Below, one piece after another: positions 15,693 through 28,284 of a stretch of DNA of 39,530 nt (position 1 is the first letter of the stretch; each line of letters begins with the position of its first letter). Position numbers and translations under genes: made by a program. The stretch comes from a virus: the IMG/VR virus record IMGVR_UViG_3300008261_000118, positions 1-39,530 of that record; one strand, given 5' to 3'. The notes under the pieces were generated by a model that searched no databases, had not been told where the DNA came from, and saw nothing but the letters and a program-made list of their open reading frames with translations.

Positions 15693-17273
15693 TTAGACAG
15701 TTGCTAATCCATCGATGAAGATCTTACCGAAGAATTCTGGACGTACGATCTTCTTCGCGTAGCGGGTCATTACGCCTCTACGTGGTGTGAAGTTGTTTGG
15801 ATCGTATACCAATGGAGTCATGATAAGTGGGATATATGGTGCGTAGACTGCACCAGTTTCGAGGAAGTTACTTCCACGGAAGCCCATTAACAATGTGTTT
15901 TCGGTCATATATGGGTTCTTGTAGATTGTGTAACGGTTTTGGAATGAACCAACCTTTGTTACGCCACCTGCAAATTCCATCTTATCACCGTCTGTTGCTG
16001 CCATAAATCCTGGGATTGTTTCCAAGATTGTTGCAACGGTTGGTGAACATACTGCAAAGTTTGCACCACCACGCATTGTGAGTTGGTGAATCTTGTTTGA
16101 TACCTTTTGCATCTTTTGACCAAGTGTTTGGAACCAAGTCATTGATGTCCAAGCTTGACCACTGAGCGTTGCACTTGCTACGAATGCTGAACCGTTCCAT
16201 ACCTTACCAACTTCTGCATTCCAGAATTCTGTTGTGGTTGCGTTTGCAATCAACATATCAAGAATTTCAAGGTCGATTTCAGTTGAGATGTAGTCACTTA
16301 ACATTGCTGTTAATTCTGCTTCTGCATCAACTGAGTGGTATGCGTTCAAGTCTTGTGCAAGTTCTGGTGACCAGACTGCCTTCAACTTACGGGTCTTTGC
16401 TACGATTGTTTCTGAACGAAGTTCCAAATCAATTTGTGGAATGTTCAAGTTTGTTACTGAGTTATCACGATCTTCAAAGTCACCACGGGTGGTGTCTGTT
16501 GGTTGCTTGTTGTATTCAACTGCTGACATTGATACCATTGAACCAAGAGCTGATGTTCCACTTACGATAAGTGTAACGTTTGTTCCGTCATACTTGGTGA
16601 ATTCTGGAAGAAGTGCACCACCTGCAACGTTTGTTGTTACGCGGAATGAACGAACTGCGTTGAAGTCAGCGTTTGAGAAACTTACTGCTGGAACAACGAA
16701 CTTGAAGAATGATGCAAATGATGATGAGTATGTATCGTTGTAGTTTACATCACCATAACCAACTGCTGAACCTGAACCAATTGCTGGTGCAAGTGTTAAT
16801 GTTGCATCATTTACTGAGTATGCGTATTCACCAGCACCGTAGAAACCACCACGTGGAAGAACACCTGAACCACTGGTTGTACCATAGAGTGAACCACCTG
16901 CGGTCTTACCGTTTACTGTGTTTGCATACTTGAAATCCATGAAGAATACCAAACCTGCTGGTAAGTTCATTGGTTGTACTGATACGAAGTTCTTACTTGC
17001 GATTGAACCGAATACCTTACGTACTAATGGAAGTGCGACACCTGCCCAGTTTTCACCAGCTGTGCCTGAACCACCTGGATTTGGGGTTGTTGCTTCTGAA
17101 AGAAGTTGTGTTGCTTGGTTTTCAAGCATTACTGCCATACCTTGCTTTTCGTGACCAGTTAAGCCTTCAAGAAGGCCTGACTTTTCCCACTTACCTGCCA
17201 ATTGGCGGGTTTGTTCAACTACTACGCGGTGTGCTGAACCGGCTTCGTTGATAAATTCTGATACACCTGACAT
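15693..17273 (-). CDS. gp23: Major capsid protein (gp23-like)
   Basis: A 526-residue precursor, similar to T4 gp23 (521). After an N-terminal propeptide come NWAGVALPLVRKVFGSIASK and VSVQPMNLPAGLVFFMDFKY, the T4-family signature at the start of the mature protein. Later come DLELRSETIVAKTRKLKAVW and SPELAQDLNAYHSVDAEAEL, and a C-terminal YAPYIPLIMTPLVYDPNNF. Cleavage by the gp21 protease is predicted after QLLSE (E60/A61), equivalent to the T4 cut after residue 65. A second I-N-E/A site occurs in the first ten residues (SEFINEAG), like a T4 capsid-targeting peptide. A strong SD (TTAGGAGATAAATCATATG) and the adjacent scaffold gene and terminator fit high late expression. Confidence 0.96.
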   Translation of the reverse strand: MSGVSEFINEAGSAHRVVVEQTRQLAGKWEKSGLLEGLTGHEKQGMAVMLENQATQLLSEATTPNPGGSGTAGENWAGVALPLVRKVFGSIASKNFVSVQPMNLPAGLVFFMDFKYANTVNGKTAGGSLYGTTSGSGVLPRGGFYGAGEYAYSVNDATLTLAPAIGSGSAVGYGDVNYNDTYSSSFASFFKFVVPAVSFSNADFNAVRSFRVTTNVAGGALLPEFTKYDGTNVTLIVSGTSALGSMVSMSAVEYNKQPTDTTRGDFEDRDNSVTNLNIPQIDLELRSETIVAKTRKLKAVWSPELAQDLNAYHSVDAEAELTAMLSDYISTEIDLEILDMLIANATTTEFWNAEVGKVWNGSAFVASATLSGQAWTSMTWFQTLGQKMQKVSNKIHQLTMRGGANFAVCSPTVATILETIPGFMAATDGDKMEFAGGVTKVGSFQNRYTIYKNPYMTENTLLMGFRGSNFLETGAVYAPYIPLIMTPLVYDPNNFTPRRGVMTRYAKKIVRPEFFGKIFIDGLATV

Positions 17274-17293
17274 ATGATTTATCTCCTAAATTG

Positions 17294-18553
17294 TTATAGA
17301 ATGCCTGCGAGTTGTTGTAGACGCTTTGCGACTGTATTTTCTTCTAAAATTTCCTTCTTTGGTGCTGTACTTGGGGTTGGCTTTGATGCCAAACCTTCGG
17401 TAACAACCTTACTTGATACGGTGCGTCCCTTTGCATTCTTAGCAGTTACAGTCATTGCTTCTGCTAATGTTGCATATACCATCTTGACTTCACGTACATT
17501 GATTGCTCTGTCGAATGATTCGAGGATTGCAACCTTTTGTTCGTTGGTCAAACCTTCCTTACGGAAGATCTTGTTGGTATAAAGGAGTTTTGCGTTTAGA
17601 AGATTTACTTCGTTAAGCTTGCCTCGTAGGACTTCTACAACCTTACGATATTCTGCTAGCTCTTTTTGAAGATCTGCCATCTTAGATGCCATTTGATGCT
17701 TTTGTTCTGTGTCCTTAGCATCTTGGGCTTCTAATTCACGAAGGATTGCTTCAAGATCGAGTTCTTCTTCGCCTTCACCTTCACCTGCGCCATAACCCAT
17801 TTCCATCTTTGGTTCTGCTGGGTTCATTGCGAACTTATGTGGGTCTGATGCATCTTCTGCACCTTCTGCCTTACCCATAGGATTTACTGCTGGAGCGGAT
17901 GGCTTGTCATCACCCTTCTTTTGCATTGCATCTGAATGTTTCTTAGCTGCTTCTGGTGGGGTGCCTGCATCTGCGGTTGGGTCTACAACCTTAGCTGCTT
18001 CGTCTGCCTTTTCCTCTTCCTCTTCCTTTTCTTCATCATCATGCATTTCTTCATTATAACCTTCCTTCATTTCTTCCTTCTCTTCTTCACCTTCATGCTT
18101 AGCTTCGTCGAGTTCTTCTTCTTCAGCTTCTGAAAGTGCGTTTACATCTCCTTCTAATTCCTTGATTACTTCGTCAAGGTCAAAATCTGATTCTGACCAA
18201 TCATCATACCAATCGGTTGATGAGTCGGTTTCACCTTCACCGCCTTGATCAATATCCGATGAGTAGTTTGCTGCATCGGATGGTTCCTTGTTGTCACCAG
18301 TTCCGATTGCGGAAGTATCTTCTGGACCACCACCTGTTACGTGTGTTGCGTCTTGGAATGGTTCTTCCTTTGCCTTTTCCGCACCTTCTGCTGTTTCCAT
18401 TGCTTCGGCACGTAAGCGCTTTGCAAGCATGGACTTGATTTGGGGTGTGAAGGTTTCTTCTAATGCAATCTTTGCATTTGCGATAGCCATATCACGGACT
18501 GCATCTGCATCTGCAATTGCTTGCTTTAGAAGTTCGTTTGTAATTTCTGCCAT
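17294..18553 (-). CDS. gp22: Prohead core scaffold protein (gp22-like)
   Basis: A 419-residue, extremely charged protein beginning MAEITNELLKQAIADADAV. Its long Glu/Asp/Lys tract (about residues 100-190) is followed by a Pro/Ala linker, a coiled coil (about 255-310), and a helical C-terminus (RKEGLTNEQKVAILESFDRA) ending near VAKRLQQLAGIL. Length, charge and position directly before gp23 and after gp21 fit the internal scaffold, which is digested by gp21 during maturation; several L-E-E or L-S-E sites are present. The frame is open 25 codons further up, but the ATG at 18553 has a GAGAGG SD six bases upstream and matches the family's start. Identification rests on composition and context more than on a motif. 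Confidence 0.85.
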   Translation of the reverse strand: MAEITNELLKQAIADADAVRDMAIANAKIALEETFTPQIKSMLAKRLRAEAMETAEGAEKAKEEPFQDATHVTGGGPEDTSAIGTGDNKEPSDAANYSSDIDQGGEGETDSSTDWYDDWSESDFDLDEVIKELEGDVNALSEAEEEELDEAKHEGEEEKEEMKEGYNEEMHDDEEKEEEEEKADEAAKVVDPTADAGTPPEAAKKHSDAMQKKGDDKPSAPAVNPMGKAEGAEDASDPHKFAMNPAEPKMEMGYGAGEGEGEEELDLEAILRELEAQDAKDTEQKHQMASKMADLQKELAEYRKVVEVLRGKLNEVNLLNAKLLYTNKIFRKEGLTNEQKVAILESFDRAINVREVKMVYATLAEAMTVTAKNAKGRTVSSKVVTEGLASKPTPSTAPKKEILEENTVAKRLQQLAGIL

Positions 18554-18619
18554 ATAATGCCTCTCGTTTGTTTCAATAGTTATTTTAACTATTATACGGT
18601 TATTAATACAAAAGCATAG

Positions 18620-18637
18620 ACACCCCAAAAGAGGTGT
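18620..18637 (-). promoter_or_regulatory. 5'-leader hairpin upstream of gp22
   Basis: The minus strand reads ACACCTC-TTTT-GGGGTGT, a 7-bp stem with one T-G pair and a four-base loop. If the -10 box at 18642-18647 is used, transcription would begin at or just before this hairpin, so it would cap the 5' end of the gp22-gp23 mRNA. No U-tract follows, so it is a poor terminator. A role in mRNA stability is inferred. Confidence 0.45.
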
Positions 18638-18641
18638 AATC

Positions 18642-18669
18642 TATATAATATATATTAGTGCTTTGACAA
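18642..18669 (-). promoter_or_regulatory. Candidate sigma70-like promoter for gp22-gp23
   Basis: On the minus strand TTGTCA (18669-18664), a 16-base spacer and TATATA (18647-18642), followed by GA, lie in the 129-base gap between the bS21 gene and gp22. TTGTCA is one base from the TTGACA consensus. The layout equals the candidate fibre promoter at 9759-9786. No CTATTTATA element was seen in this gap. Confidence 0.5.
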
Positions 18670-18682
18670 AAAACACTATTTT

Positions 18683-18901
18683 TTACCATTCTGAATTCTT
18701 TTTCTTCTCTACCTTCTTTTCTTCACGAATACGGCGACGAAGTGCTTCTTGTTGCTTTAAGATTTTTTTCTTTGACCTCTTGACATAAAACTCACGGCGC
18801 TTCACTTCGTTTACTATTTCTGCCTTTTTAACCATTTTAGAGAATTGTCGAAGTGCTCTATCTAAATCACCAAGACTGTCCCCTCTTACTTCTACATACA
18901 T
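18683..18901 (-). CDS. rpsU: Phage-encoded ribosomal protein bS21 homologue
   Basis: 72 residues, the normal size for bS21 (about 70). The pattern MYVEVRGDSLGDLDRALRQF, KKAEIVNEVKRREFYVKR and a Lys/Arg-rich helical tail matches the bacterial family signature of an N-terminal beta strand, ALR.F......KAG...E...REFYEKP and a basic C-terminus. bS21 binds the 30S platform near the anti-SD and helps initiation. A phage copy could replace or compete with the host protein to favour viral mRNAs; that is inference. It has one of the best SDs in the window (AAGGAGGTTGTATG) and lies between the holin-like gene and gp22. Phage bS21 homologues are known from other viruses, including Pelagibacter phages and very large phages. 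Confidence 0.9.
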   Translation of the reverse strand: MYVEVRGDSLGDLDRALRQFSKMVKKAEIVNEVKRREFYVKRSKKKILKQQEALRRRIREEKKVEKKKNSEW

Positions 18902-18913
18902 ACAACCTCCTTA

Positions 18914-19237
18914 TTAGCCACCTAATGTATTTGAGAATGATTGACCATCTTCTTCGTCCATCTTTTGTACTAACATCTTATCCTTATCGGTATCTGAGAA
19001 CCAGTAGTCAATAATCTTACCGTATGAACCAATAAATGCACCAAGCATAAGAAGTAAAAGTTCTTTCCATTCACCGTCAATTGGTGTTTGCATATACACT
19101 GCACCAGTGATGCCTGCAACGATTAACATAAATGTGACAAGAACGATGCCCGTGATATTCCAACGACGAGCCATCATCTTGAACAACATTTCTTGGAACT
19201 TACTTTCTTGTGATACTGGGGTTTCTTCTGTTGCCAT
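18914..19237 (-). CDS. Small two-helix membrane protein, holin-like
   Basis: 107 residues with two hydrophobic segments: WNITGIVLVTFMLIVAGITG (about 26-47) and ELLLLMLGAFIGSYGKIIDY (about 59-78). These are followed by WFSDTDKDK and a charged tail. The LLMLGAFIGSYGKIIDYWF segment resembles the C-terminal region of the holin_3TM-like family of phage and gene-transfer-agent holins. Holins form the inner-membrane lesion that times lysis. No endolysin is adjacent, so the call is moderate; a virion or other membrane role remains possible. The ATG at 19237 is chosen because GGAG lies six bases upstream; the ATG at 19249 overlaps that SD. Confidence 0.65.
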   Translation of the reverse strand: MATEETPVSQESKFQEMLFKMMARRWNITGIVLVTFMLIVAGITGAVYMQTPIDGEWKELLLLMLGAFIGSYGKIIDYWFSDTDKDKMLVQKMDEEDGQSFSNTLGG

Positions 19238-19263
19238 AACTATCTCCATTAATAAAACTTGTA

Positions 19264-19272
19264 AATAAATAG
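19264..19272 (-). promoter_or_regulatory. Weak late promoter-like element (CTATTTATT)
   Basis: The minus strand reads ACCTATTTATTTACAAG, 26 bases before the ATG at 19237, overlapping the 3' end of the HAD gene region. It has one mismatch to the CTATTTATA family at the same distance from a start codon, so it may drive the holin-like and bS21 genes. Confidence 0.35.
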
Positions 19273-19273
19273 G

Positions 19274-19957
19274 TTATTTCATATTTTTAGCGATATAATT
19301 CATCGCCGTCTTTCTGACTACCGAATCTGTTCCATAACCCAATGCACTCTTAACCAAAATATCACGGCCAGTTTGTGGATTTTTAATACGATGTTTTAAT
19401 AAATCTTTTAGTCGTGTTTGTTTTGTTGGTGTTCCACCAGCTTGTTTTGTATCTTTTTCTTGTGCTTGTTGCACGACCAACTTTGTTTGTGGATACTTGT
19501 CCATTAATGTTTTGACTGCTTTTACATTCTTTGGTGCATCGTCAACAAATGCTATTCTGGTATATCCATTTTTAATATGTTTTTCTATGTATCGCGCTTT
19601 TTCCATCGGGTCGCTATCACCTAATGCAGCAATTGTGATACCCGATGTGATACCTTGTGACTTTAAAAATTGCGCAATAGGTTTAGTATGACCACGAGCA
19701 GTTAAGACTACTACTTTATCTGCTTTCTTTTGATCAATGACTTTCTTTAATAGATTGACATATTTTTTTATAGGACGGGGATTTTTCAATTGTTCAAACT
19801 CTGAGTAGTCGAACGTATCACCAGGCTGTTTTTCGTATGATACGTAATCAGCGGGACTTATATCTTTTTTCTTTCCATCCTTGTCAATAACAATAACCCT
19901 AGCGTCTGTATGCACTAGGGTATCGTCAAAATCAGTAATATATGCGGTTTTACCCAT
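19274..19957 (-). CDS. HAD-superfamily phosphatase with a C-terminal adaptor-like domain
   Basis: 227 residues. HAD motif I is DFDDTL (D9, D11), motif II is VVLTARG (T86), a lysine follows in PMEKARYIEKH (about K120), and motif IV is FVDDAPKN (D139/D140), so all catalytic positions are present. The cap region is small, which suits protein, nucleic-acid end or small phosphate substrates; the substrate cannot be read from sequence. After a Gln/Lys/Thr linker, residues 183-222 form a basic segment (LLKHRIKNPQTGRDILVKSA) with an NPxTGRxI core that I associate with short adaptor domains in viral proteins. The gene is one base from its upstream neighbour and lies in the head-gene cluster. Confidence 0.82.
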   Translation of the reverse strand: MGKTAYITDFDDTLVHTDARVIVIDKDGKKKDISPADYVSYEKQPGDTFDYSEFEQLKNPRPIKKYVNLLKKVIDQKKADKVVVLTARGHTKPIAQFLKSQGITSGITIAALGDSDPMEKARYIEKHIKNGYTRIAFVDDAPKNVKAVKTLMDKYPQTKLVVQQAQEKDTKQAGGTPTKQTRLKDLLKHRIKNPQTGRDILVKSALGYGTDSVVRKTAMNYIAKNMK

Positions 19958-19958
19958 A

Positions 19959-20441
19959 TTAACGGGTTACTAACTTATATGCAGTTGCTACCATCTTTTC
20001 GGTTGGAAGGGACAACATCTTCTTTCTATTGTCTGGTGATAACTTGTGTAATACACGAGTCAATAATGCTGCGGTGTAAATGTCTAACATTACACCACCA
20101 ACTTCTGCTGGTTTTCTGTCCTTTACAATACTCAATATTTGACTTTGCTTAGAACTATAATCTTCACTAGTGGTGACCAAGTGTGGGTCATTCGATACAG
20201 TTGGTGTGGTATCGTCAGATGCTACTGGAAAATCGGAGATTGGGACTGCTCCTGCAACTTCGTCCTTTTTCTTTGGTAGTTTATCGTGTGGAGTAGATGC
20301 ATACTTTTCTACACTACCTTTTGCCACAGTCTGTGCTAACTTTCTTGCGGTTGGACTAAAATCACTTGCTTTTGCTCGTCCAGTTTGGATAGCTCTAACA
20401 ATACCAAATAATTTTTGTTGTGCTTTACTAACTGATGGCAT
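19959..20441 (-). CDS. DUF3008-like protein with helical C-terminus
   Basis: 160 residues. The N-terminal 60 residues (MPSVSKAQQKLFGIVRAIQT, AKASDFSPTARKLAQTVAKG, VEKYASTPHDKLPKKKDE) closely follow the DUF3008-like small-protein pattern of SK.QQ..f......k.G......S......a..m....v..fa.T.h..LP.k. A low-complexity linker and a helical C-terminal part (about 100-160, with YTAALLTRVLHKLSPDNRKK) come after. Function is unknown. Start is immediately after the zincin stop (TAA-ATG), with GGAGAG as SD, so the two are coupled. Confidence 0.72.
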   Translation of the reverse strand: MPSVSKAQQKLFGIVRAIQTGRAKASDFSPTARKLAQTVAKGSVEKYASTPHDKLPKKKDEVAGAVPISDFPVASDDTTPTVSNDPHLVTTSEDYSSKQSQILSIVKDRKPAEVGGVMLDIYTAALLTRVLHKLSPDNRKKMLSLPTEKMVATAYKLVTR

Positions 20442-20810
20442 TTATCTCTCCACGTACATTTCTGGTCGTAAGTATCTAAACTTACGCATTAATTCACCTG
20501 CTTTTGCATTTGCTTCGTTTTCTGTGTTTGACCCATCTTCACCATTCAACTCTTGATTACTGGTTCGTTGTTTGTGATGCACCATCTCGTGAGCCAAGGT
20601 TCGTAATACATCCGCAATATGACGATTACCTTTTACGATAATAATTTCGTCAGTTTGTGGATTATAGGTTCCAAAGGTTAAATTTTCTTTAGAATAATCA
20701 CTACCCACAAATTTAATATTGGCAGGTAGTGATTGAAGTTGTAGCTCTTTTGCGACAAACTTTACAAATTCATTTGTGATATTTTCATTTAGTAAAGCTT
20801 TAAGTCGCAT
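20442..20810 (-). CDS. Small zincin-type metallopeptidase with capsid-targeting-like N-terminus
   Basis: 122 residues with an HExxH zinc site, TLAHEMVHHKQ (H74, E75, H78), and a downstream acidic helix NTENEANAKAGELMRKF in which E97 or E99 could be the third ligand. This is the minimal gluzincin-like layout. The first nine residues, MRLKALLNE, end in L-N-E, a possible gp21 cleavage site like those of T4 internal head proteins. The preceding domain includes FGTYNPQTDEIIIVKGNRH, a usual beta-hairpin before the active helix. The target is unknown; it could act in the prohead or, if packaged, be injected. Its SD is poor. Confidence 0.75.
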   Translation of the reverse strand: MRLKALLNENITNEFVKFVAKELQLQSLPANIKFVGSDYSKENLTFGTYNPQTDEIIIVKGNRHIADVLRTLAHEMVHHKQRTSNQELNGEDGSNTENEANAKAGELMRKFRYLRPEMYVER

Positions 20811-20816
20811 AGAAAA

Positions 20817-21074
20817 TTATTTGGTCTTTTTCTTTGTTGTTATCTTTTTTGCCTTCTTAACAACCTTTTTACCAGTTGCTTCTACTGCCTTAACGGCTGC
20901 AACTGCGTCTTTGAGGTCAACCTTACCATCACCGTTGACATCAACAACCTTAACTGCAACTGCTTCAACCTTCTTGGTTGCCTTTAACAAAGGTGCTGGG
21001 GCTTCCATTACCTTACGATTAACAAAATAAATTACAACTGCTAATACGAATACTACTACTAAAAATGTTGTCAT
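20817..21074 (-). CDS. Small membrane protein with a dockerin/EF-hand-like calcium loop
   Basis: 85 residues. An N-terminal membrane helix (TFLVVVFVLAVVIYFV, residues 3-18) is followed by a Lys/Val/Ala-rich linker, a single 12-residue loop DVNGDGKVDLKD (D45, N47, D49, K51, D53, D56) with canonical EF-hand/dockerin ligand spacing, and a short helix. The tail is very basic (KKVVKKAKKITTKKKTK). One isolated loop is usual for dockerin-like repeats, but dockerins carry two. Function is unknown; surface or membrane anchoring is plausible. It lies between gp21 and the zincin. Confidence 0.75.
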   Translation of the reverse strand: MTTFLVVVFVLAVVIYFVNRKVMEAPAPLLKATKKVEAVAVKVVDVNGDGKVDLKDAVAAVKAVEATGKKVVKKAKKITTKKKTK

Positions 21075-21083
21075 AAAAACTCC

Positions 21084-21671
21084 TTACTTTAGTTCACCTA
21101 AAAAGTCATATATCAATGTATCAATACGACTATAGGGGGTGATAATTTGACCACCCTTGTTTTCGTTGATAAATGCCCCGTGAGTACTTGGATTACTGAC
21201 AATATCAAAGCAGATAAGTGAGAAGTCATCACCAACTTCTACAGTATTCTCACCGATTGGTTTGACAGAACCCATACCACGGGATGAAACACCCAATCGG
21301 ATATTGTTCTTGATGAGTTCACGAACGATATTGCCTGATGGGGTAGATAAAATTTCGATATTGCCCTTGACATCATCACCTTCGAACCAGAGTTCGGTGA
21401 CGTTGCAACAGACGTTTTTTAAGTTGACGACAGGACTTTCTGGATGGTCGAGTTCACCAAGTGCACGGCGTTGTGATACGAAGTTATTCTTGTATACCAT
21501 TGCTTCACGTGATAAGATTTCCTTTGGATATACACGACCATTCTGGTTCTTCATTTCTGCACGTTGAAGTAAAACATCTTTTAACATCAAAGGTTTACTG
21601 ATGTCTGCTGCTTCTTTTAATAAAGTAGTGTCATAAGAAATGACATTATATTCTACGAGTAATGTTTGCAT
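21084..21671 (-). CDS. gp21: Prohead maturation protease (gp21-like)
   Basis: 195 residues, near T4 gp21 (212). KNQNGRVYPKEIL, RRALGELDHPE (His76) and IRLGVSSRGMGSVKPIG (Ser129 or Ser130) match the T4 protein's NRNKRLYPKRIL, KQALGELNHP and GWIPGVSSRGLGS. The His and Ser are the catalytic pair of this serine protease family. It digests the scaffold and trims capsid proteins after I/L-x-E sites, making room for DNA. The frame is open 14 codons further up, but the ATG at 21671 sits one base after the upstream stop (TAATATG), as at other junctions here. The gene lies between portal and scaffold, as in T4. Confidence 0.95.
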   Translation of the reverse strand: MQTLLVEYNVISYDTTLLKEAADISKPLMLKDVLLQRAEMKNQNGRVYPKEILSREAMVYKNNFVSQRRALGELDHPESPVVNLKNVCCNVTELWFEGDDVKGNIEILSTPSGNIVRELIKNNIRLGVSSRGMGSVKPIGENTVEVGDDFSLICFDIVSNPSTHGAFINENKGGQIITPYSRIDTLIYDFLGELK

Positions 21672-21672
21672 A

Positions 21673-22170
21673 TTATTGCCCACGGATTTCACGGATGCGT
21701 GTTGCAAGTCCAAGAAGTCTTGATTCCAACTTCAATAATCCTTGTTGTGTACGCTTCCATAGTTGTTCACTTGCGATACCTGATTCAGTCTTTAAACGAC
21801 TATTCATTCTAATAACACGTTCAACTTCTTGTAAATTTCTATTAAGTTGTGAAATAGCTTCTGCAATCTTTCTGTGTGGTGTCTTTGATGTGTCGTTCTT
21901 ATATTCGTAATACTTGTTTTCGTTTAATTCCTTAGTGACAATTTCCATTTTATCGGCTGGACGATTTGCTTCTTCTTCACCCTTTGGAGTTAACTTAAAT
22001 CCTGTGGTTGCGGTGGCAATATGCTTAGAACGTGCTACACTCTTTGCTTTATTACCACGAAACGAATATGGAGTTAGGTATCCAGGAACATTTGCTGTCG
22101 TTGTCATTTCATCAAGTTTTTTCTTGATAATTTGTCGGACGCGTTCACGAATTTGTTGTGTTTTGTCCAT
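21673..22170 (-). CDS. Conserved helical protein between portal and protease
   Basis: 165 residues: a basic helix (KTQQIRERVRQIIKKKLDEM), a short segment TTTANVPGYLTPYSFRG, and a helical, charged C-terminal half with coiled-coil character (ISQLNRNLQEVERVIRMNSR). The TxxANVxGYxTPYxF phrase is one I associate with proteins next to gp21 in aquatic T4-like phages, but I cannot name the family. T4 has the prohead core proteins gp67 and gp68 here, so a core or assembly role is inferred. An L-D-E site occurs near residue 20. The stop is one base before gp21. Confidence 0.75.
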   Translation of the reverse strand: MDKTQQIRERVRQIIKKKLDEMTTTANVPGYLTPYSFRGNKAKSVARSKHIATATTGFKLTPKGEEEANRPADKMEIVTKELNENKYYEYKNDTSKTPHRKIAEAISQLNRNLQEVERVIRMNSRLKTESGIASEQLWKRTQQGLLKLESRLLGLATRIREIRGQ

Positions 22171-22173
22171 AGA

Positions 22174-23052
22174 TTAACTCTTTAAAGTGTCTAGTGTCTT
22201 GGTAATTTCCAAGGCAATTAATAACGCGGTCATGTGATTTTCCTTGACCATTTGAACTGTCTTTAACTTTTCCAATTGTGAAACAACTTCTGACAACTTG
22301 ATGGTAGTCACTTTATTATCAATTTTAGCTATCTTCTTTGTTATTTCGGCAATCAATTCTTTTGCCAAATCTACGGCATATGCTCGAAGAGCTGCTGAAT
22401 TGGATACGTTATAGATATATTCACGGAGAAGGTTTTTTTGCTTATCACTAAGGTCTACATACTTTTGATTGAACTTTTCCATCAAAATCTTGTAGGTTAA
22501 TAAACGTAAATCTTCTTCTTGGTTCTTTACGGTTTCAAATAATGCAGTTTCCTTCTTAATTTCCTTGTTGACAATCTTACCACTTAAATGTTCAACAATA
22601 GTAAACTTAGCTTCAACCATACCTTGAATTTCATTGAAGTCTTGGATTTCGTTTACTGCACCATCAAATACCTTATATACAGAAGCATAAACTTTGTAAG
22701 ACGGAATACGGGCATTTAAAAATTCTTTTAAATCGTAGTTGTTTTTAATTTCACGAATTAACTTGTATTTTTGTGTGTTTAATGCCACTTCATTTAACTT
22801 TTTACGTTGTGATATCAATACGTTGATAAGTTCAAATGCCTTAGTTTCACTGAGTTGTTGTGCATTGAAGAAGGAACGATAAAGTATCAATTCTTTACCA
22901 AGTTCTGTCTTAGAATTGAAATACTCTTTCATTAGTTTGACCGCAGTATCATTACTACGGTTTTCCAATGCGTCTGAGGTTATTTTACGGACTAATAGTT
23001 CAAATAGTATGCCCGTATTCCGAATTTTGTTATGCTTGACGTTTGCTTTCAT
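22174..23052 (-). CDS. All-helical protein after the portal, possible prohead core component
   Basis: 292 residues from the ATG at 23052; an ATG at 23058 would add two. It is almost entirely helical and rich in Lys, Glu and Leu. Phrases include VKHNKIRNTGILFELLVRKI at the start, KLMKEYFNSKTELGKEL, and a C-terminal LSEVVSQLEKLKTVQMVKEN. No catalytic motif is seen. Its place between portal and protease fits T4 gp67/gp68, although those are smaller. The start at 23052 is chosen because GGGA then has a usable spacing. A 57-base AT-rich gap precedes it, with no clear promoter. Confidence 0.72.
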   Translation of the reverse strand: MKANVKHNKIRNTGILFELLVRKITSDALENRSNDTAVKLMKEYFNSKTELGKELILYRSFFNAQQLSETKAFELINVLISQRKKLNEVALNTQKYKLIREIKNNYDLKEFLNARIPSYKVYASVYKVFDGAVNEIQDFNEIQGMVEAKFTIVEHLSGKIVNKEIKKETALFETVKNQEEDLRLLTYKILMEKFNQKYVDLSDKQKNLLREYIYNVSNSAALRAYAVDLAKELIAEITKKIAKIDNKVTTIKLSEVVSQLEKLKTVQMVKENHMTALLIALEITKTLDTLKS

Positions 23053-23115
23053 AAACATCCCATTTTAGTGACAGTATACCGTCATATATTAAATATAACG
23101 AATATTAATAAGACT

Positions 23116-25008
23116 TTAGTTTTCTAGGTCCAAAATATTACTTTCGTCTAATAAAGAACCAGTTGGTTCTTGGTTTTCCATTAAGACTTTCTTACTTGGC
23201 TTTTTTAAGTTTGCAACTAATGCCTGAACTTCTTTAGTAAGTGCCAACGGAGACTTTCTTTTATCATTTCGTTGTTTACTGACCGTCAACGAACCCATAT
23301 TTTCTTTGTGTCCGAGTGGGTCACGACCACGTGGGTGACTGTCTTGACCAAATTTCATTCCTGTTTTTGGACGGCCCATCTTAGCTTCTTCTAATTCAGC
23401 TTCTTCATCACCGTATCCTTCCAACTCACTTTCCTCACCACCATCTTCTAATGAGGCCAAAATACTATCAACATCAGAAACTTGTTGTTCCTCTTCTTCG
23501 GTTGGTGGTGCTTCATCTGTTGCTGGTTGTTCACCTGTAGCACCTGGTTGTTGTGGTTGTGCTGATTGTTCTAACTGTGCCATACGTTTTACATCTTCTG
23601 CAATCTTAGTACGTTCTTCCACGATTTCATCATCAGATAATTCAAGAATATTATGGTATATCCATTCTTGTGATAACATCTTACTGTTCATAATAGATTC
23701 TGCAACCCCAATCTTTTCCTTCCATAAGTTTAACTTTTCTTGTTCATAGACAATTGATGGGTTGGTCAACGATAATTCAAAGTCTATCAAATCTTCATCA
23801 GTAAATCCTTGAACGTATAAGTGGATAATTGCAATCTTGGTGAGTTCTGACACCATAATACGTTGGATACGTTCTATAGTACGTGCGAAACGTACATCTT
23901 GTGCCGCCAATGTTGCCTTACCACTTAAATCTTCTTCGTATCCTAAGAATGCTTTTGGTACCTTGAATGCTGCCATTAACTTATTACGGAGGTATTCAAT
24001 ATCTTCGATAGCATTAAATTGTAGACCTGGAAGGTTTTGGATGTCTGTTCCAGAATCTTTACCGCGAACAGGAAGATAAAAATCTTCTGTGATATTTTGC
24101 ATATTATAACGAAGATTATAATCACCAGTTGCAGGATCTACCAATGGTGTTTTCTTCATTCTATCCATAATACGATTCATAAACGTATCGATTTCTGCTG
24201 GTGGGATATTACCGATATCAATTAAAATCTTACGCTTATCTGCCGCTCTCATAATACGATGAATTAACATCGCATCTTCCATCAATTGAAGTTGTTTCCA
24301 CACACGACGACCACCTTCAACCATTGCCTTACCATATGGAAGGAAGTTGGTGTCCGAAAGGAGACGGAAGTGAGCTATTTCGTAATTATCGAATTCAGTC
24401 TTACCTAACGATAAGAAATCGTTTTCAATCTTGAACTTGACTGAGAATGGATTACCTGGGTCTTGACCTTCGATACGAATAGTTTCATAGACAGAAAGGG
24501 GTAATACATTTACAATTCCAAATTCTGGGTCTATGTCTAGGAATAAAAAGAAATCACCATACTTGACCATATTACGAATCCAAGGCCACATATTGAATTC
24601 CACATTCAATACATCATAGAATAAGTTATGTAAGATTTCTTGTATTTGTGTATTCTTCGAATGAATGGTAAGGAGATTACCAAATTCATCTTTGGTGGTT
24701 GATTCGTCAGCATAGATGTCCATCACCGATGAAATAATGGGGTCATTATCCATCATATCATAATCACGGAACAATTGCAAGCGGGAACCTTGGAACGCAG
24801 CCGCTGCTTCATATCGTCCATGGGCAGAACCATATCCACCCGTCATAGAAGAATAGACGCGGTGGTATCTATCAATACCGCGTCTATTGATAAACGATTG
24901 AATGTTATCTGTGTCGGCTACTTTAAGTCTTTTTCCACCAACATTACGAACTACCGTATTAGTAGAAAATAATTTCTTTAGTCTGCCAAATATGCTGTTA
25001 TCAGCCAT
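23116..25008 (-). CDS. gp20: Portal protein (gp20-like)
   Basis: 630 residues, longer than T4 gp20 (524). Family features are YDMMDNDPIISSVMDIYADE near residue 85, GDFFLFLDIDPEFGIVNVLP, VEGGRRVWKQLQLMEDAMLI, HRIMRAADKRKILIDIGNIP, and MAAFKVPKAFLGYEEDLSGK. The portal dodecamer sits at one capsid vertex, nucleates head assembly and carries the DNA channel for gp17. The extra length is an acidic, low-complexity C-terminal tail (about residues 480-630) with Gln/Pro and Glu-rich runs followed by basic segments and L-D-E near the end, which may be a gp21-trimmed tail. It has a strong SD (GAGGGG). Confidence 0.95.
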   Translation of the reverse strand: MADNSIFGRLKKLFSTNTVVRNVGGKRLKVADTDNIQSFINRRGIDRYHRVYSSMTGGYGSAHGRYEAAAAFQGSRLQLFRDYDMMDNDPIISSVMDIYADESTTKDEFGNLLTIHSKNTQIQEILHNLFYDVLNVEFNMWPWIRNMVKYGDFFLFLDIDPEFGIVNVLPLSVYETIRIEGQDPGNPFSVKFKIENDFLSLGKTEFDNYEIAHFRLLSDTNFLPYGKAMVEGGRRVWKQLQLMEDAMLIHRIMRAADKRKILIDIGNIPPAEIDTFMNRIMDRMKKTPLVDPATGDYNLRYNMQNITEDFYLPVRGKDSGTDIQNLPGLQFNAIEDIEYLRNKLMAAFKVPKAFLGYEEDLSGKATLAAQDVRFARTIERIQRIMVSELTKIAIIHLYVQGFTDEDLIDFELSLTNPSIVYEQEKLNLWKEKIGVAESIMNSKMLSQEWIYHNILELSDDEIVEERTKIAEDVKRMAQLEQSAQPQQPGATGEQPATDEAPPTEEEEQQVSDVDSILASLEDGGEESELEGYGDEEAELEEAKMGRPKTGMKFGQDSHPRGRDPLGHKENMGSLTVSKQRNDKRKSPLALTKEVQALVANLKKPSKKVLMENQEPTGSLLDESNILDLEN

Positions 25009-25022
25009 AACCCCTCAACTTG

Positions 25023-25373
25023 TTAGTAGATATACAATTCGTCTATTGACTTGATAACCATTTCAACGATGTGTGTATCTAATCCCTTAGCTGGTTTCTT
25101 CAATAGACTATTTAATGCTTCACGTAAATCACGAGCTGGCATTACTACGGTTGCCAATTCGGTCATATGCCATTCTGACATTGTGTTGTAGTTGTATGGT
25201 ATTTCATTGACCTTGGTGATTCCTGCAAGTAATTCTGCGGTTAGTTTTGCCAACTTTTCTTCTTGAGCTTCTTTAAGGGTTGGAGTTAACTTTTCAAGTA
25301 ATGCGACCAAACGCATTGAGTTGATGCGGTTTTCCTTACCTGCTTCTGTGATTAAATCTGTGAGCTTAATCAT
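25023..25373 (-). CDS. Small helical protein with capsid-targeting-like N-terminus
   Basis: 116 residues, starting MIKLTDLITEAGKENRINSM. The first ten residues fit the T4 capsid-targeting pattern, with I-T-E at 8-10 followed by Ala. The rest is helical (RLVALLEKLTPTLKEAQEEK, AKLTAELLAGI, and IVEMVIKSIDELYIY at the end). A central NYNTMSEWHMTELATVV segment is Met/His-rich. No named family is recognised. The ATG lies inside the end of the upstream gene (8-base overlap), so translation is coupled. The frame is open 28 codons further up, but those codons overlap the upstream gene. Confidence 0.72.
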   Translation of the reverse strand: MIKLTDLITEAGKENRINSMRLVALLEKLTPTLKEAQEEKLAKLTAELLAGITKVNEIPYNYNTMSEWHMTELATVVMPARDLREALNSLLKKPAKGLDTHIVEMVIKSIDELYIY

Positions 25374-25686
25374 GCTTTTTCTCCCTATCCAATGCTGTTC
25401 GCATTTTTTTAACATCTTGTGGTTTTGGTGCTGCGTTGATTGCCCCACCAGGTCCAACTAGTTGTTCATGCTTCTTTTCTACGTACTTCATTAATAATGA
25501 ATAATACTTCGGGTTTTCTTTCAAGTGTGCTGCTGCGATTTTTGCAGTCTTGACCACGTTTCCGTTGGTCACATCTTGGTGTTCCAACTCAACATTCATC
25601 CCTAAAAAGAATTCTGTTGGATTAAACTTATAACCCATTTTATCTAATATCTTGTCGGATTGTTCCCGTGAGATTTTCTTTTTCAT
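25366..25686 (-). CDS. DUF5661-like small protein
   Basis: 106 residues: MKKKISREQSDKILDKMGYK, then FLGMNVELEHQDVTNGNVVK and TAKIAAAHLKENPKYYSLLM. The G..VELEH....T......A.IA..HL.E.P.YY..L pattern is, from memory, that of the small DUF5661 family. Its conserved Glu, His and Asp residues would suit metal binding. Function is unknown. The start is one base after the upstream stop, and its own stop overlaps the next gene. Confidence 0.72.
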   Translation of the reverse strand: MKKKISREQSDKILDKMGYKFNPTEFFLGMNVELEHQDVTNGNVVKTAKIAAAHLKENPKYYSLLMKYVEKKHEQLVGPGGAINAAPKPQDVKKMRTALDREKKHD

Positions 25687-25687
25687 A

Positions 25688-26257
25688 TTACCAGGTACGA
25701 CATGCCCAGTAACGAGCTTTTGTTCTTGGACCTGGATTATCACAATTGTGTCTTGCACGGAACGACTTACGACGAGAAGGGATATTTTTTTTAATCTTCA
25801 TTGTCTTTTCACCTCGACGTTTTGCCGAAGTTCCACCATGACCAAAATTAACCTTCTTAATATTTCCACTCTTTGGGTCTTTGACGAACACCTTAAACTT
25901 CTTAACATCACCTCTCATAATCTTACCGAGAGCAACCTTACGACCACGATATTCTGCTTCACCGAGTTGATTTTCGTGTAATCCTTCAAGAACTTCAATA
26001 AGACATTCTGTGCAGTATTCACCATCGTTTATTTCATCTTCGTGACCTGAAACGTGTGTTTCCGAGCCGAATTGGTCACGTTCATTATCTTGGTCTGGCT
26101 TGAAATCACTATCCGATGTAACATCACTTTCTGGACGATGATAAAGTTCTTCTACTGGAACGCAGTTGGGAACCATCTTACCGTTCTTTTCCTTCATACC
26201 AACTTGCTTATATCCTTCCCAACAACCTTCGCAAAGAATATCAGTTAATCTAATCAT
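25688..26257 (-). CDS. Cys-rich basic-tailed phage protein with capsid-targeting-like N-terminus
   Basis: 189 residues. It starts MIRLTDILCEGCWEGYKQVG, with an L-C-E site at 8-10. GCWEGYKQVGMKEKNGKMVP with NCVPVEE is a motif I have seen in several phage small proteins. An acidic middle with ECLIEVLEG follows. The basic C-terminal domain is KVFVKDPKSGNIKKVNFGHG and SRRKSFRARHNCDNPGPRTK, ending ARYWACRTW; paired Cys and His residues suggest a small metal-binding or nucleic-acid-binding fold. Likely packaged head protein, by inference from the N-terminus and basic tail. The start at 26257 matches sister genes; an open extension of 21 codons lacks that pattern. Confidence 0.75.
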   Translation of the reverse strand: MIRLTDILCEGCWEGYKQVGMKEKNGKMVPNCVPVEELYHRPESDVTSDSDFKPDQDNERDQFGSETHVSGHEDEINDGEYCTECLIEVLEGLHENQLGEAEYRGRKVALGKIMRGDVKKFKVFVKDPKSGNIKKVNFGHGGTSAKRRGEKTMKIKKNIPSRRKSFRARHNCDNPGPRTKARYWACRTW

Positions 26258-26279
26258 TTTCTCTCTCAAAGTCAAGAGT

Positions 26280-26603
26280 TTATTTCTTTTTAAAGGTAGA
26301 AACCATTGTTGGTTTTCCACCTGGATTTCCTGCTTTTCTCTTTCTAACTACAGCCGAACGTTTTTCACCTTTACTCATCGCTGCTGCGGAACGAGCGGGA
26401 CGACACTTTGGATATTTTGCACTACCACCCTTTCGCTCTTTCTTACCAGCCGAAGCACCGCATGGTGGATGTTTTCCTTTTTTATCTTTGCGAGAAATAT
26501 CTACCCATTTTTGACGAAGCCATTTACCAAGATTACCTTTGGTTTTATACTTTTCGTCAAGTTCAGTTACAACTTCGTCTAAAAGGTCAGTTAAAAGAAT
26601 CAT
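26280..26603 (-). CDS. DUF5872-like basic protein with capsid-targeting-like N-terminus
   Basis: 107 residues, very basic. MILLTDLLDE gives an L-D-E site at residue 10 and closely parallels the T4 Alt leader as I recall it (MELITELFDE). The body has KWLRQKWVDISRKDKKGKHP, PCGASAGKKERKGGSAKYPK and CRPARSAAAMSKGEKRSAV; the WVDI.R..KKGK...CG....K......YPKCRP.. pattern fits the DUF5872-like family. The strong positive charge suits contact with packaged DNA, like T4 internal proteins. Its ATG overlaps the stop of the Dps-like gene (ATGA). Confidence 0.78.
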   Translation of the reverse strand: MILLTDLLDEVVTELDEKYKTKGNLGKWLRQKWVDISRKDKKGKHPPCGASAGKKERKGGSAKYPKCRPARSAAAMSKGEKRSAVVRKRKAGNPGGKPTMVSTFKKK

Positions 26604-26962
26604 TTTAAATATTTTAACTTATAGATAGTGGAATTCACCAACGCTGAGATTTCATCAACAATATTATTAAGGTCACCATCTTGTGGTAGTCCCTTACGAA
26701 CACTATCAATATAGGTTGATAATCCAGTAAAATACTTAATTACTTCATCGTTTTCAAAGTATTGTTTTTGTGGAGTATAACCACGGATAATTCCATAGCG
26801 ACCTTGGCAAGTTTCTGCGTAGCTATCAACCAACCCTACAACTGCATCATAATAATCGTTTAATGCTTTGTGAACGGCATACGATGATGTTTGGAGATGA
26901 AAGATATGTGCTTGGTCACGACTATTGAATAGTGTGGATAAAAACTTGGCTACAGTTTCCAT
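26600..26962 (-). CDS. Dps/ferritin-like protein with intact ferroxidase ligands (DUF5856-like)
   Basis: 120 residues, all helical, starting METVAKFLSTLFNSRDQAHI. Segment FHLQTSSYAVHKALNDYYDA then VVGLVDSYAETCQGRYG aligns with the Dps core HW.V.G..F..LH..FE..Y.......D..AER. The ligand spacing is exact: H19-x11-H31-x14-D46-x3-E50, as in Dps ferroxidase centres (H, H, D, E). Dps proteins are about 150-170 residues, so this is a trimmed version. Family membership in DUF5856 is from memory; the ferritin-like fold is my inference from spacing. Possible roles are iron/peroxide detoxification or a DNA-associated shell. It overlaps both neighbours (TAATG and ATGA). Confidence 0.7.
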   Translation of the reverse strand: METVAKFLSTLFNSRDQAHIFHLQTSSYAVHKALNDYYDAVVGLVDSYAETCQGRYGIIRGYTPQKQYFENDEVIKYFTGLSTYIDSVRKGLPQDGDLNNIVDEISALVNSTIYKLKYLK

Positions 26963-27432
26963 TACATTGTTCCCGATGGTGCTGGAACTGCACCTGCTGC
27001 TCCAGGAACTTCAGCTGTACCATTTTGGTCCTTTTCACTACTAATATATTGTGCAGCAGATTCAGTATATTCCTTAGCTAAAGAAATTTTATTTTGTACC
27101 CATTCTGGTAAGTTGGTGTCGTCTGCCAACATATCATGCAACATTTGTGCATTTCTAATAATGGTTTGTAATTGATTCTTTGCCATGTCACCTTCGTAAT
27201 CATATTCACCAGAATCAACTGCATCTTTAGGTCCGATTTCTTCCTTTTTTTCCATTGACTTACCGATAGCATCACGGCGAGCTTTTAAATACTTGTCTGA
27301 TGAATCTTTATCACCATCATTATCGATATCACCATCTTCTTTACCAACGGCGTCAAGAGCTTCTTTTACAGCTCCAACTGGCTTATCACCAATTCCCTTG
27401 ATACCAGCTACCAATCCCATAAGTCTAATCAT
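26962..27432 (-). CDS. Conserved small phage protein with EF-hand-like cassette
   Basis: 156 residues. After MIRLMGLVAGIKGIGDKPVG comes an acidic cassette, KEDGDIDNDGDKDSSDKYLK then ARRDAI, with DxDxDG spacing typical of EF-hand-like calcium loops. The main domain is YDYEGDMAKNQLQTIIRNAQ, MLHDMLADDTNLPEWVQNKI and SLAKEYTESAAQYIS, a helical motif I recognise from many aquatic T4-like phage structural or accessory proteins but cannot name. It ends with an Ala/Pro/Gly tail. The N-terminal MIRLMGL resembles its sister genes but lacks the I/L-x-E site. SD is GGAG eight bases before the ATG. Confidence 0.75.
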   Translation of the reverse strand: MIRLMGLVAGIKGIGDKPVGAVKEALDAVGKEDGDIDNDGDKDSSDKYLKARRDAIGKSMEKKEEIGPKDAVDSGEYDYEGDMAKNQLQTIIRNAQMLHDMLADDTNLPEWVQNKISLAKEYTESAAQYISSEKDQNGTAEVPGAAGAVPAPSGTM

Positions 27433-27450
27433 ATTACTTCTCCAAAGTGT

Positions 27451-27642
27451 TTAGAGGGATTTTTGTCCCTTCTTTTGTGCCACCAAATATCTCTTATACA
27501 AATCACGTTTTGCTTTTAACATTTTATCTATTAAATTTACTTTTCCATCATTATTTACATCTGCGTCCTCTTGACCCATTGGATCACGTCGCTTGTGTGG
27601 TATATGATATTCTTTCTTAGTTTTTCTCCAACCACCACCCAT
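27451..27642 (-). CDS. Downstream half of a frameshifted conserved small protein
   Basis: The first ATG in this frame, at 27642, falls inside a conserved motif. Upstream in the same frame and without a start codon comes KVYPSAYANLWAAKKYKSMG, a phrase very common in aquatic phage proteins, bounded by TGA at 27706-27708. The frame continues GGWRKTKKEYHIPHKRRDPM, then an EF-hand-like cassette DADVNNDGKVNLIDKMLKAK, and ends KRYLVAQKKGQKSL. It most likely forms one protein with the gene at 27555-27860, joined by a -1 shift near 27693-27705. Independent translation from 27642 would begin in mid-motif. Confidence 0.6.
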   Translation of the reverse strand: MGGGWRKTKKEYHIPHKRRDPMGQEDADVNNDGKVNLIDKMLKAKRDLYKRYLVAQKKGQKSL

Positions 27643-27860
27643 ACTCTTATACTTCTTTGCTGCCCAAAGGTTAGCGTATGCTGATGGATATACTTTGAAA
27701 TCTCTTCAGCTTTTTGTAATCGTGGATCTTTAAAATCACTCTCTGTTTCTTTATATCCAAATCCAGGATATCCCTCTTCTTGTTCTCCACAACCACAATC
27801 AGCTTCGTGGAGACAACCGCAATCCTCAAAAATGTAGGTGTAATATTCTTTATATTCCAT
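27555..27860 (-). CDS. Upstream half of a frameshifted conserved small protein (Cys-rich)
   Basis: It begins MEYKEYYTYIFEDCGCLHEA with a Cys cluster (CGC..., DCGCGEQEEG) and continues to DPRLQKAEEIS. The following reading in this frame (KYIHQHTLTFGQQRSIRVWV) looks like noise, because the same DNA in another frame encodes the conserved KVYPSAYANLWAAKKYK motif. A single missing base, for example in the GAAGAGATTTC stretch, would restore AEEDFKVYPSAYAN. The Cys-rich N-terminus may bind metal. The ATG follows the upstream stop by one base (TAATATG). The true product is probably about 133 residues, or a truncated one. Confidence 0.6.
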   Translation of the reverse strand: MEYKEYYTYIFEDCGCLHEADCGCGEQEEGYPGFGYKETESDFKDPRLQKAEEISKYIHQHTLTFGQQRSIRVWVVVGEKLRKNIIYHTSDVIQWVKRTQM

Positions 27861-27861
27861 A

Positions 27862-28122
27862 TTACTTACCTTTACTTTTCTTACTATCTATTGCCTTGTT
27901 GGTTGATGCTGCCCAAAGGTATGATTTCCAATCATCACCGAACTTATCCTTAAAATAACGGATAGAACGCTTGTTCTTTAACAACTTCTTGCCAATACCA
28001 TCACGCTTTTTGACTTGGGACTTATCCATTTTACGTGGTGGTTCACGGCGAGCTACGGTGCGTTCTGCCAATTCCGCTTCTAATTCTTCACGAATAATTT
28101 CTAAAAGTTCATCTTTGGTCAT
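27862..28122 (-). CDS. Small basic helical phage protein
   Basis: 86 residues: an acidic amphipathic helix (TKDELLEIIREELEAELAER) followed by a basic domain KMDKSQVKKRDGIGKKLLKN, RSIRYFKDKFGDDWKSYLWA and ASTNKAIDSKKSKGK. The KRD.IG..L......I..FK...GDDWK.YLWA..TN.A phrase is one I associate with small proteins of aquatic T4-like phages; no function is known. The gene sits three bases after the 28126-28284 gene and one base before the frameshifted gene, in the same small-gene run. Confidence 0.75.
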   Translation of the reverse strand: MTKDELLEIIREELEAELAERTVARREPPRKMDKSQVKKRDGIGKKLLKNKRSIRYFKDKFGDDWKSYLWAASTNKAIDSKKSKGK

Positions 28123-28125
28123 ATC

Positions 28126-28284
28126 TTATACCGGTTTTGATGTTGTTTTCCCACCACGTTTACGCTTTCTACGTCCAGCGCAATGTGCTTTTTGGCTGAA
28201 ACCCTTTGGATTACTACAATTTATGGACTTTTTGTATCTGTTTGTCCATTTTTCTGTCAACAAAATATCAACTAATTTAATCAT
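28126..28284 (-). CDS. 52-residue basic protein with capsid-targeting-like N-terminus
   Basis: Translation from ATG at 28284 gives MIKLVDILLTEKWTNRYKKS, INCSNPKGFSQKAHCAGRRK, RKRGGKTTSKPV, then TAA. It is short enough to be missed by length filters. The L-T-E site at 9-11 fits gp21 cleavage. The CSNPKGFSQKAHCAGR segment with two Cys and a basic run is a motif I recall at the ends of many phage proteins, probably a small metal or nucleic-acid-binding element. A CTATTTATA element lies 26 bases upstream, so this starts the terminase-portal small-gene operon. Confidence 0.75.
   Translation of the reverse strand: MIKLVDILLTEKWTNRYKKSINCSNPKGFSQKAHCAGRRKRKRGGKTTSKPV

Follow-up and report, generated by a model that had tools for sequence, protein, structure and literature searches.

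Leaders and protease of the window

The locus studied here raises the question of why several genes with unrelated products start with nearly the same short leader, and whether this leader sends their products into the phage head. It is located in IMG/VR virus record IMGVR_UViG_3300008261_000118, a complete record of 39,530 nucleotides (39.5 kb; 'the window' denotes this whole stretch), and carries head genes of a T4-like phage. These genes lie on the minus strand, as does every window gene given below by two-dot coordinates. An earlier reading of the sequence (the original prediction) had listed six leaders ending in I/L-x-E at residues 9-11, and had proposed that they are sorting tags, cut after Glu by a gp21-type protease, of proteins that travel inside the head. 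All six were found where they had been placed, i.e., MIKLVDILLTE (28284), MILLTDLLDE (26603), MIRLTDILCE (26257), MIKLTDLITE (25373), MRLKALLNE (20810) and, on the major capsid protein gp23, MSGVSEFINE (17273). The bodies behind them are unrelated, as had also been claimed: the best E value in an all-against-all BLASTP comparison was 0.089, and phmmer returned only self-hits at E up to 10. A gp21-type prohead protease is encoded at 21084..21713 (Peptidase_S77, 9.1e-27; phrog_207 head maturation protease, 1.3e-48). The S77 protease was present in the window and in 9/9 large relatives, which were picked via searches with the protease and with the BAS body described below. A 148-kb relative (L006, G001 in our labels) encodes a protease identical to that of the window.

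We assign a probability of about 0.8 to the reading that these leaders act like the capsid-targeting sequences (CTS) of T4, and that a gp21-type cut frees the bodies behind them inside the head. During head assembly, the hydrophobic residues 4 and 7 would dock each protein on the scaffold core within the prohead, after which the docked proteins would be enclosed by the shell. The protease would cut after the Glu of [I/L/M]xE, and the freed body would stay in the head, packed with the DNA, probably to be injected into the host. The small and very basic bodies freed in this way would be those of the genes starting at 28284 and 26603 and the C-terminal half of the 26257 product, which would be cut a second time between its two modules; the 27862 gene has the same kind of site. 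Excerpts of the literature, from which other known systems are also cited below, report each of these steps (docking, enclosure, cutting, head retention and host entry) for the internal proteins of T4 (PMC9026906, PMC9391042), where gp21 cuts after L/I-x-E, and where residues 4 and 7 of the IPIII CTS serve targeting and residues 8 and 10 serve processing (PMC9026906). The T4 leader quoted in the original prediction, MKTYQEFIAE, is indeed the start of IPII and IPIII; T4 alt.-1 starts with MELITELFDG. As far as comparison of sequences goes, a sorting tag with a gp21-type cut is well supported for the 28284, 26603 and 26257 proteins. The core of the original prediction was thus right, while packaging of the zincin is less certain, and the idea was too simple for gp23 and the 25373 protein, which are more complex cases.

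Cut sites and start codons at domain boundaries

The best evidence for the tag idea is a natural experiment, provided by the contrast between phages with and without the protease at the boundaries of the HVA1-like and BAS bodies. In the window, the HVA1-like domain (25691-25957; phrog_7595) forms the C-terminal part of the 189-amino-acid product of 25688..26257; 'HVA1' is the name on the CRP-901 and CRP-902 records, with no confirmation by profile. Two modules make up this precursor, and the original prediction missed a further predicted cut between them: the leader (26228-26257) is followed by a CW module (CWEGYKQVGMK..PNCVP), and an internal LGE|A (25958-25966) directly precedes the HVA1-like domain. 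Among the boundaries that passed our filter, all 28 distinct ones from protease-plus phages have [ILMVF]xE directly before the first residue of this domain, which is A, G or S. In protease-minus phages, Met directly precedes Ala, the same residue, at 10/10 boundaries that passed, i.e., one in a complete phage and nine distinct ones in contigs of 30 kb or more. The first Ala is nearly invariant in both classes, so that cutting after Glu or removal of the start Met, which is generally removed from Met-Ala starts, would leave the same N-terminus. Since the cut falls on the domain boundary, the freed domain would begin exactly where protease-less phages begin it with a start codon.

Four of these protease-plus cases lie outside the window's clade, with LTE|A in C48C1, LEE|A in HTVC008M, LDE|G in immuto and MME|S in Melnitz. 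Records that were short or untested yielded another 40 distinct boundaries, 11 with the site and 29 without it. The filter missed diverged homologues, and 10 of the 28 phage records with the domain were examined; read by eye outside the filter, the domains of HTVC026P, HTVC111P and Kolga start with Met-Ala. No S77 match (PF03420) was found in any of nine complete phages with an HVA1-like or BAS body, namely HTVC023P, HTVC027P, HTVC106P, HTVC026P, HTVC111P and Kolga (Pelagibacter), CRP-902 and CRP-6 (Roseobacter), and DSL-LC04. Likewise, the search that detected S77 in all nine relatives found it in 0/50 protease-minus IMG/VR records, which are fragments (25 of them at least 30 kb), and in 0/44 shorter ones.

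The BAS body is a basic two-Cys module (phrog_23735) encoded by 26280..26603 (107 amino acids; leader region 26553-26603, with LDE at residues 10 and 17). The leader is present as predicted, but the conserved cut site is the LDE at residue 17 and not the one at residue 10. LDE followed by K, R or E occurred at 16/16 distinct protease-plus boundaries, and the site occurred at 0/12 protease-minus boundaries. S77 was detected in 23/50 contigs with a leadered BAS, the remainder being mostly short. The CW module is preceded by a site in 29/29 protease-plus cases, in contrast to 0/3 leaderless short contigs; in three further cyanophages with the protease, [VFL]xE lies between one and nine residues ahead of it. 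In six leaderless contigs (L286, L289, L292, L293, L336, L352), CW and BAS are fused directly with no intervening cut site, whereas the window's group encodes them in separate genes.

Two further small genes show the same fixed Glu. The 52-amino-acid product of 28126..28284 consists of the leader (28252-28284) and a basic 'PKG' body, WTNRYKKSINCSNPKGFSQKAHCAGRRKRK. Its boundary has the P1 Glu (the residue before the predicted cut) at the same place in 20/20 distinct protease-plus sequences, and [ILMVF]xE in 19/20. The 86-amino-acid product of 27862..28122, which was absent from the original prediction, has LAE20|RTV (28063-28071); [ILMVF]xE|[RK][TS]V was found at 19/21 distinct protease-plus boundaries, with the other two outside this expression. 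Contigs L106 and L119 were counted as protease-plus by their likeness to tested contigs, and omitting both alters no HVA1-like, BAS, CW or PKG count.

What precedes the site varies from a leader of its own to a six-residue stub or the C-terminal end of another protein, and hardly anything other than selection for cutting would account for a site that stays constant while the upstream sequence changes. Each leader might instead be tied to its body by descent and simply have been lost in the small phages, with no link to the protease; indeed, protease presence and T4 ancestry are inseparable in these data. We regard this as improbable, however, because the upstream sequences of protease-plus phages vary widely and yet keep the site, and because DSL-LC01 (129 kb, no S77 match) has the CW module inside a 347-amino-acid protein with no preceding site.

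Leader pattern across genomes

The motif named in the original prediction is present, but its bare wording discriminates poorly. [IL]xE with its Glu at any of residues 9-11 was counted 110 times against about 61 expected in nine protease-plus genomes, and 27 times against about 13 expected in six protease-minus genomes. With this roughly twofold enrichment irrespective of the protease, we rejected the bare motif as evidence. It would suit the view that the leaders are ordinary amphipathic N-terminal helices, whose Glu is there by chance or for the sake of the fold. This view is highly improbable: the P1 Glu is fixed at domain boundaries behind differing upstream sequence, and a fuller amphipathic pattern splits the two classes.

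This fuller pattern requires hydrophobic residues at -6, -3 and -2 from the Glu, i.e., residues 4, 7 and 8 if Glu is at 10. It was defined after we had seen the leaders of the window and of T4, and the counts are therefore not fully independent. Its positions, compared with the T4 mutagenesis review only afterwards, coincide with the IPIII targeting and processing residues named there. With Glu at residues 9-11, the pattern was found in 5/35 called window genes against 0.08 expected, although the gene finder used had missed the 28284 gene; the 27862 gene fits as well, with Glu at residue 12. With Glu at residue 10, it was found in 29/1544 distinct N-termini of the nine protease-plus genomes, compared with 3/1795 in the full control (Fisher, 2e-7), in which 66 of the 160 contigs had no protease test. 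Restricting the control to the 94 contigs that had such a test, plus six complete phages, gave 3/1397 (P 6.6e-6), many of these control records being fragments. Shuffling residues 2-14 gave mean counts of 2.2 (protease-plus) and 1.2 (control), and without the window's clade the difference persisted (14/1042 against 3/1397 in the restricted control, P 0.001). Our earliest control, 419 genes of six phages with 5 matches at residues 9-11 against 0.9 expected, was judged too small and later enlarged.

Matches to the pattern are concentrated near head genes. In G001, all eight (Glu at residues 9-12) lie within the block bounded by gp17 and gp23, which accounts for 23 of the 162 genes (P 5e-8), and in three other relatives 5/6, 4/4 and 4/6 are located in head regions. 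Among the window leaders, hydrophobic residues 4 and 7 combined with I/L-x-E at residues 8-10 are exact in 26603, 26257, 25373 and gp23; the 28284 leader has hydrophobic residues 4 and 7 with its site at 9-11, and the 20810 leader is offset by one residue. T4 has seven matches, which include IPII, IPIII, gp24, gp2, gp61.1 and two others. T4 gp61.1 (L423, NC_000866 18966-19130), a hypothetical protein of 54 amino acids, starts with MKTFKEFIKED, which closely resembles the leader of IPII and IPIII, and is predicted from this start to be packaged.

Freed bodies and core-like proteins

The predicted freed bodies are strongly basic, with isoelectric points (pI) of 11.5 for PKG, 11.1 for BAS, 11.4 for the HVA1-like half and 10.6 for the 27862 body, against a window median of 6.2. 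In the window copies, the PKG, BAS, CW, HVA1-like and 27862 modules contain no [IL]xE after their sites, a scarcity partly due to their low Glu content. NCBIfam gave no match for the PKG, BAS or HVA1-like bodies, and the only Pfam match of BAS was sub-threshold (DUF5872). AlphaFold models of BAS (mean predicted local distance difference test, pLDDT, 62; predicted template modelling score, pTM, 0.50) and of the HVA1-like domain (pLDDT 56, pTM 0.33) were too poor for a fold search. Anti-defence and DNA binding are the leading ideas for the role of these modules.

It is possible, if doubtful, that the bodies are cut and packaged and then merely neutralise or condense the DNA in the head, with no action in the host. 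Their pI values would suit this, and a review reports contacts between DNA phosphates and the lysines of internal proteins in T4 (PMC3012670). On the other side, T-even internal proteins of known role act in the host, IPI against GmrSD and IPIII being needed on ECOR17 (PMC9391042), and enzymes in the virion of cyanophage S-CREM2 carry the leader; both points bear only indirectly on these basic bodies.

Alternatively, the leader-bearing proteins could be parts of the core or scaffold, like T4 gp67 and gp68, which are docked, chopped up and lost rather than injected. The protein that best suits this description is the 116-amino-acid product of 25023..25373, located 14 bp upstream of a portal-like gene. 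Its leader (25344-25373) is clearly conserved, with Glu in 11/11 distinct protease-plus N-termini and a ratio of nonsynonymous to synonymous substitution (dN/dS) of 0.27 in the leader against 0.96 in codons 21-60, although the two values come from different pair sets and saturation is possible. This much agrees with the original prediction. The protein is not basic, however: it is near neutral, with six [IL]xE sites spread along its whole length and no match in Pfam or PHROGs. It may therefore be a core protein, of the kind that is degraded, and probably shares the docking signal. The stretch 21673-22170, adjoining gp21, likewise contains six such sites; in T4, cutting reduces the core proteins to fragments (PMC9026906); and the CW half of the 26257 precursor is acidic, with three [IL]xE sites close together in the linker behind it (residues 88-100). 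Overall this alternative is unlikely: the PKG, BAS, HVA1-like and 27862 bodies of the window are free of sites beyond their own, and the HVA1-like and BAS bodies stand alone in phages with no S77 match. In relatives, residues 70-100 of the 26257 precursor repeatedly show a segment of the form CPxCL or CxECL, together with a stretch resembling a helix, before LGE|A; this linker segment is possibly a second docking element.

Leaders on gp23, the zincin and a cytidylyltransferase

The capsid protein gp23 (15693..17273; Gp23, 1.4e-72) has the predicted leader (17244-17273); among 29 distinct N-termini, residue 10 is E in 20 and D in 4, and the leader is unmatched in 5. A cut at this leader is less certain in view of the Asp in 4/24 leader-bearing forms. 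In T4, Asp at leader residue 10 is reported to stop cutting and not targeting (PMC9026906), so that the gp23 leader may only dock. The propeptide of gp23 itself is probably cut at LSE60|A (17094-17102), judging by the sequence.

The zincin-like protein (20442..20810; Peptidase_M78 at 5.7e-4, below the cut-off) carries its leader (20784-20810) in the window copy, as predicted. The pattern, however, occurs in at most 12/31 distinct protease-plus orthologues, one of which, MKLAKEFIKFVTEE, is probably a false match; at least 4 of the other 19 (such as MDSRDKFFLNE) have I/L-x-E near the start. The zincin may or may not be head cargo.

The original prediction did not list the 937-amino-acid product of 31170..33983, which has a cytidylyltransferase/NMNAT-like domain (CTP_transf_like, 1.6e-5) and LFE8|Q (33960-33968) near its start. 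LFE was found in 10/11 distinct protease-plus sequences, and in two of these ten the site lies about 35 residues further in, in a longer open reading frame (ORF).

Virion proteomes and points against the reading

Published virion proteomes give thin support to a link between leader and packaging. The published virion list of S-CREM2, which has the protease, was obtained by mass spectrometry and comprises 52 proteins (PMC10665884, Table 3), of which 51 were read, leaving out the long tail fibre gp85. The pattern was present in 4/51 detected and 2/167 undetected proteins (P 0.028), i.e., 4/6 patterned proteins were detected, and a looser pattern gave 5/51 against 4/167 (P 0.034). The four patterned virion proteins are a SAM hydrolase, a kinase, a cytidylyltransferase and a 78-amino-acid protein (L416 3837-12846, L418 17709-18569). 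In S-SZBM1 (PMC9146016), taken alone a weak case, 1/26 detected proteins has the pattern, again a cytidylyltransferase, and 1/3 patterned proteins was detected. Here 26 of the 30 listed proteins were read (ORFs 74, 207, 208 and 209 were omitted), and the scan of undetected genes covered the minus strand within the initial 148.4 kb out of 177.8 kb. A putative cytidylyltransferase has also been reported in S-SM1 virions by Sullivan et al. (PMC3037559).

Several points weigh against the reading of the leaders as capsid-targeting sequences. Besides the late definition of the pattern and the fragmentary control noted above, protease presence is confounded with T4 ancestry, and the protease-plus and protease-minus sets came from different queries, the latter using leaderless proteins. 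The S-CREM2 association is modest, the bare motif giving 6/51 detected against 7/167 undetected (P 0.083), and in S-SZBM1 two small proteins with textbook leaders went undetected. At the boundaries, PKG has exceptions in L101 (RGE) and S-CAM9 (AKE, departing at P3), the HVA1-like copy of HTVC106P has a diverged N-terminus, and CRP-6 lacks S77 and yet has LEE before its HVA1-like domain, a diverged copy joined to another kind of head protease. Some CW relatives have a lead-in such as MENLTE, which with its six residues, if that Met is the start, is too short to dock by the T4 model. The CW half of the 26257 precursor has an acidic pI of 4.3. Most zincin orthologues are without the leader pattern, and homologues that lack the leader in phages with the same protease had been named in the original prediction as one kind of contrary evidence. 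Finally, sequence, conservation and protease coupling come from comparative data, and from these we infer docking, cutting, packaging and injection.

A number of side observations concern these and other phages. The Cas9-annotated virion protein of S-CREM2 has a similar stretch, RFASFMAE, near residue 25, and no Pfam domain with E values as high as 0.01 allowed. Several leader-bearing proteins share a 'GFGRW/GFGYW'-like stretch (L110/G003 79674-80891; the S-CREM2 virion kinase, L416 10579-12846), and a similar stretch lies upstream of the HVA1-like domain in L094 (3047-4103); it is possibly a further cargo module. In S-RIM8, S-CAM9 and S-SZBM1, members of a cyanophage family with MKS[FY]..F[LI]SES..I.GDFNG (L425 2839-3165, L426 3600-3908, L422 23812-24129) carry a textbook leader; the family is encoded next to a gene for a virion structural protein. 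In Roseobacter phage CRP-6 (L411 1135-1824), the diverged HVA1-like domain is N-terminal to an XkdF-like head protease (Peptidase_S78_2, 7e-18), an independent hint that this domain belongs in the head.

Comparison with known systems

The principle of a packaging tag is known from T4. There, IPI, IPII, IPIII and Alt likewise combine a leader of about ten residues and diverse bodies with an S77 protease in the genome, and IPII and IPIII share with the window leaders the hydrophobic residues 4, 7 and 8 and the Glu at 10. In T-even phages the internal proteins are diverse, with only the CTS conserved (PMC3012670), and it has been suggested that T4-like phages in general use the CTS to package proteins of various kinds (PMC9026906). 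The window differs in its small basic two-Cys modules, its leader form MI[KR]LTD[IL]LxE, its two-module precursor with a predicted internal cut, and in that packaging is so far a prediction. T4 gp24 (starting MAKINELLRES) and gp23 are shell proteins that gp21 cuts near the N-terminus; the gp23 of the window has a leader and the later LSE60|A, and the Asp in its leader is unlike a required cut site. In phiKZ and SPN3US, a distant gp21 relative cuts propeptides after Glu in a short motif, which in phiKZ is S/A-x-E with several sites per propeptide (PMC9026906). Several SPN3US propeptides exceed 100 residues (PMC5694885), whereas the window leaders are of T4 size. HTVC023P, HTVC026P, HTVC111P, Kolga and CRP-902 have the same HVA1-like or BAS body as the window, with no S77 match and no leader, and their domain starts at or near the initiator Met. 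In our searches, which covered open-licence papers, the CTS was described for T4 and discussed for giant phages, whereas neither its occurrence in cyanophages nor these cargo families came up. New here are the different lineage, the cargo, the polyprotein layout and the switch between Glu and Met at a domain boundary.

A broader scheme, which we find equally easy to believe and to doubt, is that aquatic phages share a circulating kit of small basic modules. In phages with a gp21-type protease, each module would have a cut site at its domain boundary and be carried in the head, singly or within a polyprotein; in the others, that residue would be the start codon. The protease would then provide a post-translational start site that yields one constant mature N-terminus, with anything fused behind the site becoming cargo, including the SAM hydrolase and cytidylyltransferase of cyanophage virions. 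If the reading of the leaders as capsid-targeting sequences is true, sequence could be used to predict which proteins many uncultured T4-like phages package and probably inject, either by the pattern at residues 4, 7, 8 and 10 or by a P1 Glu at a domain boundary where other phages have a start Met. 'Hypothetical' genes near head genes would become predicted first-contact proteins, like the T4 internal proteins (anti-restriction, host range). It could also explain the virion enzymes of cyanophages that, in excerpts of the reports, the authors suspected to be carry-over from purification (PMC10665884, PMC9602691).

Neighbouring genes

The large terminase gp17 (28324..29910) was identified by tblastn against annotated terminases, where the best annotated matches listed had 51.7-52.5% identity over 99-100% of the length; these best-listed relatives, about 52% identical, are Microcystis phage Mel-JY01 and Flavobacterium phage immuto. 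We take 23116..25008 to be a portal-like gp20 from its position and from features of that family. An acidic protein in the gp22 position (17294..18553), with 12 [IL]xE sites and no Pfam match, is a putative gp22-type scaffold, judging by its place between the protease and gp23 and by its composition. At 27451-27860, the window has an ORF of 101 amino acids that is shorter than its 161-amino-acid counterpart in the close relative G001 (66269-66754), so that the window may carry a frame change there.

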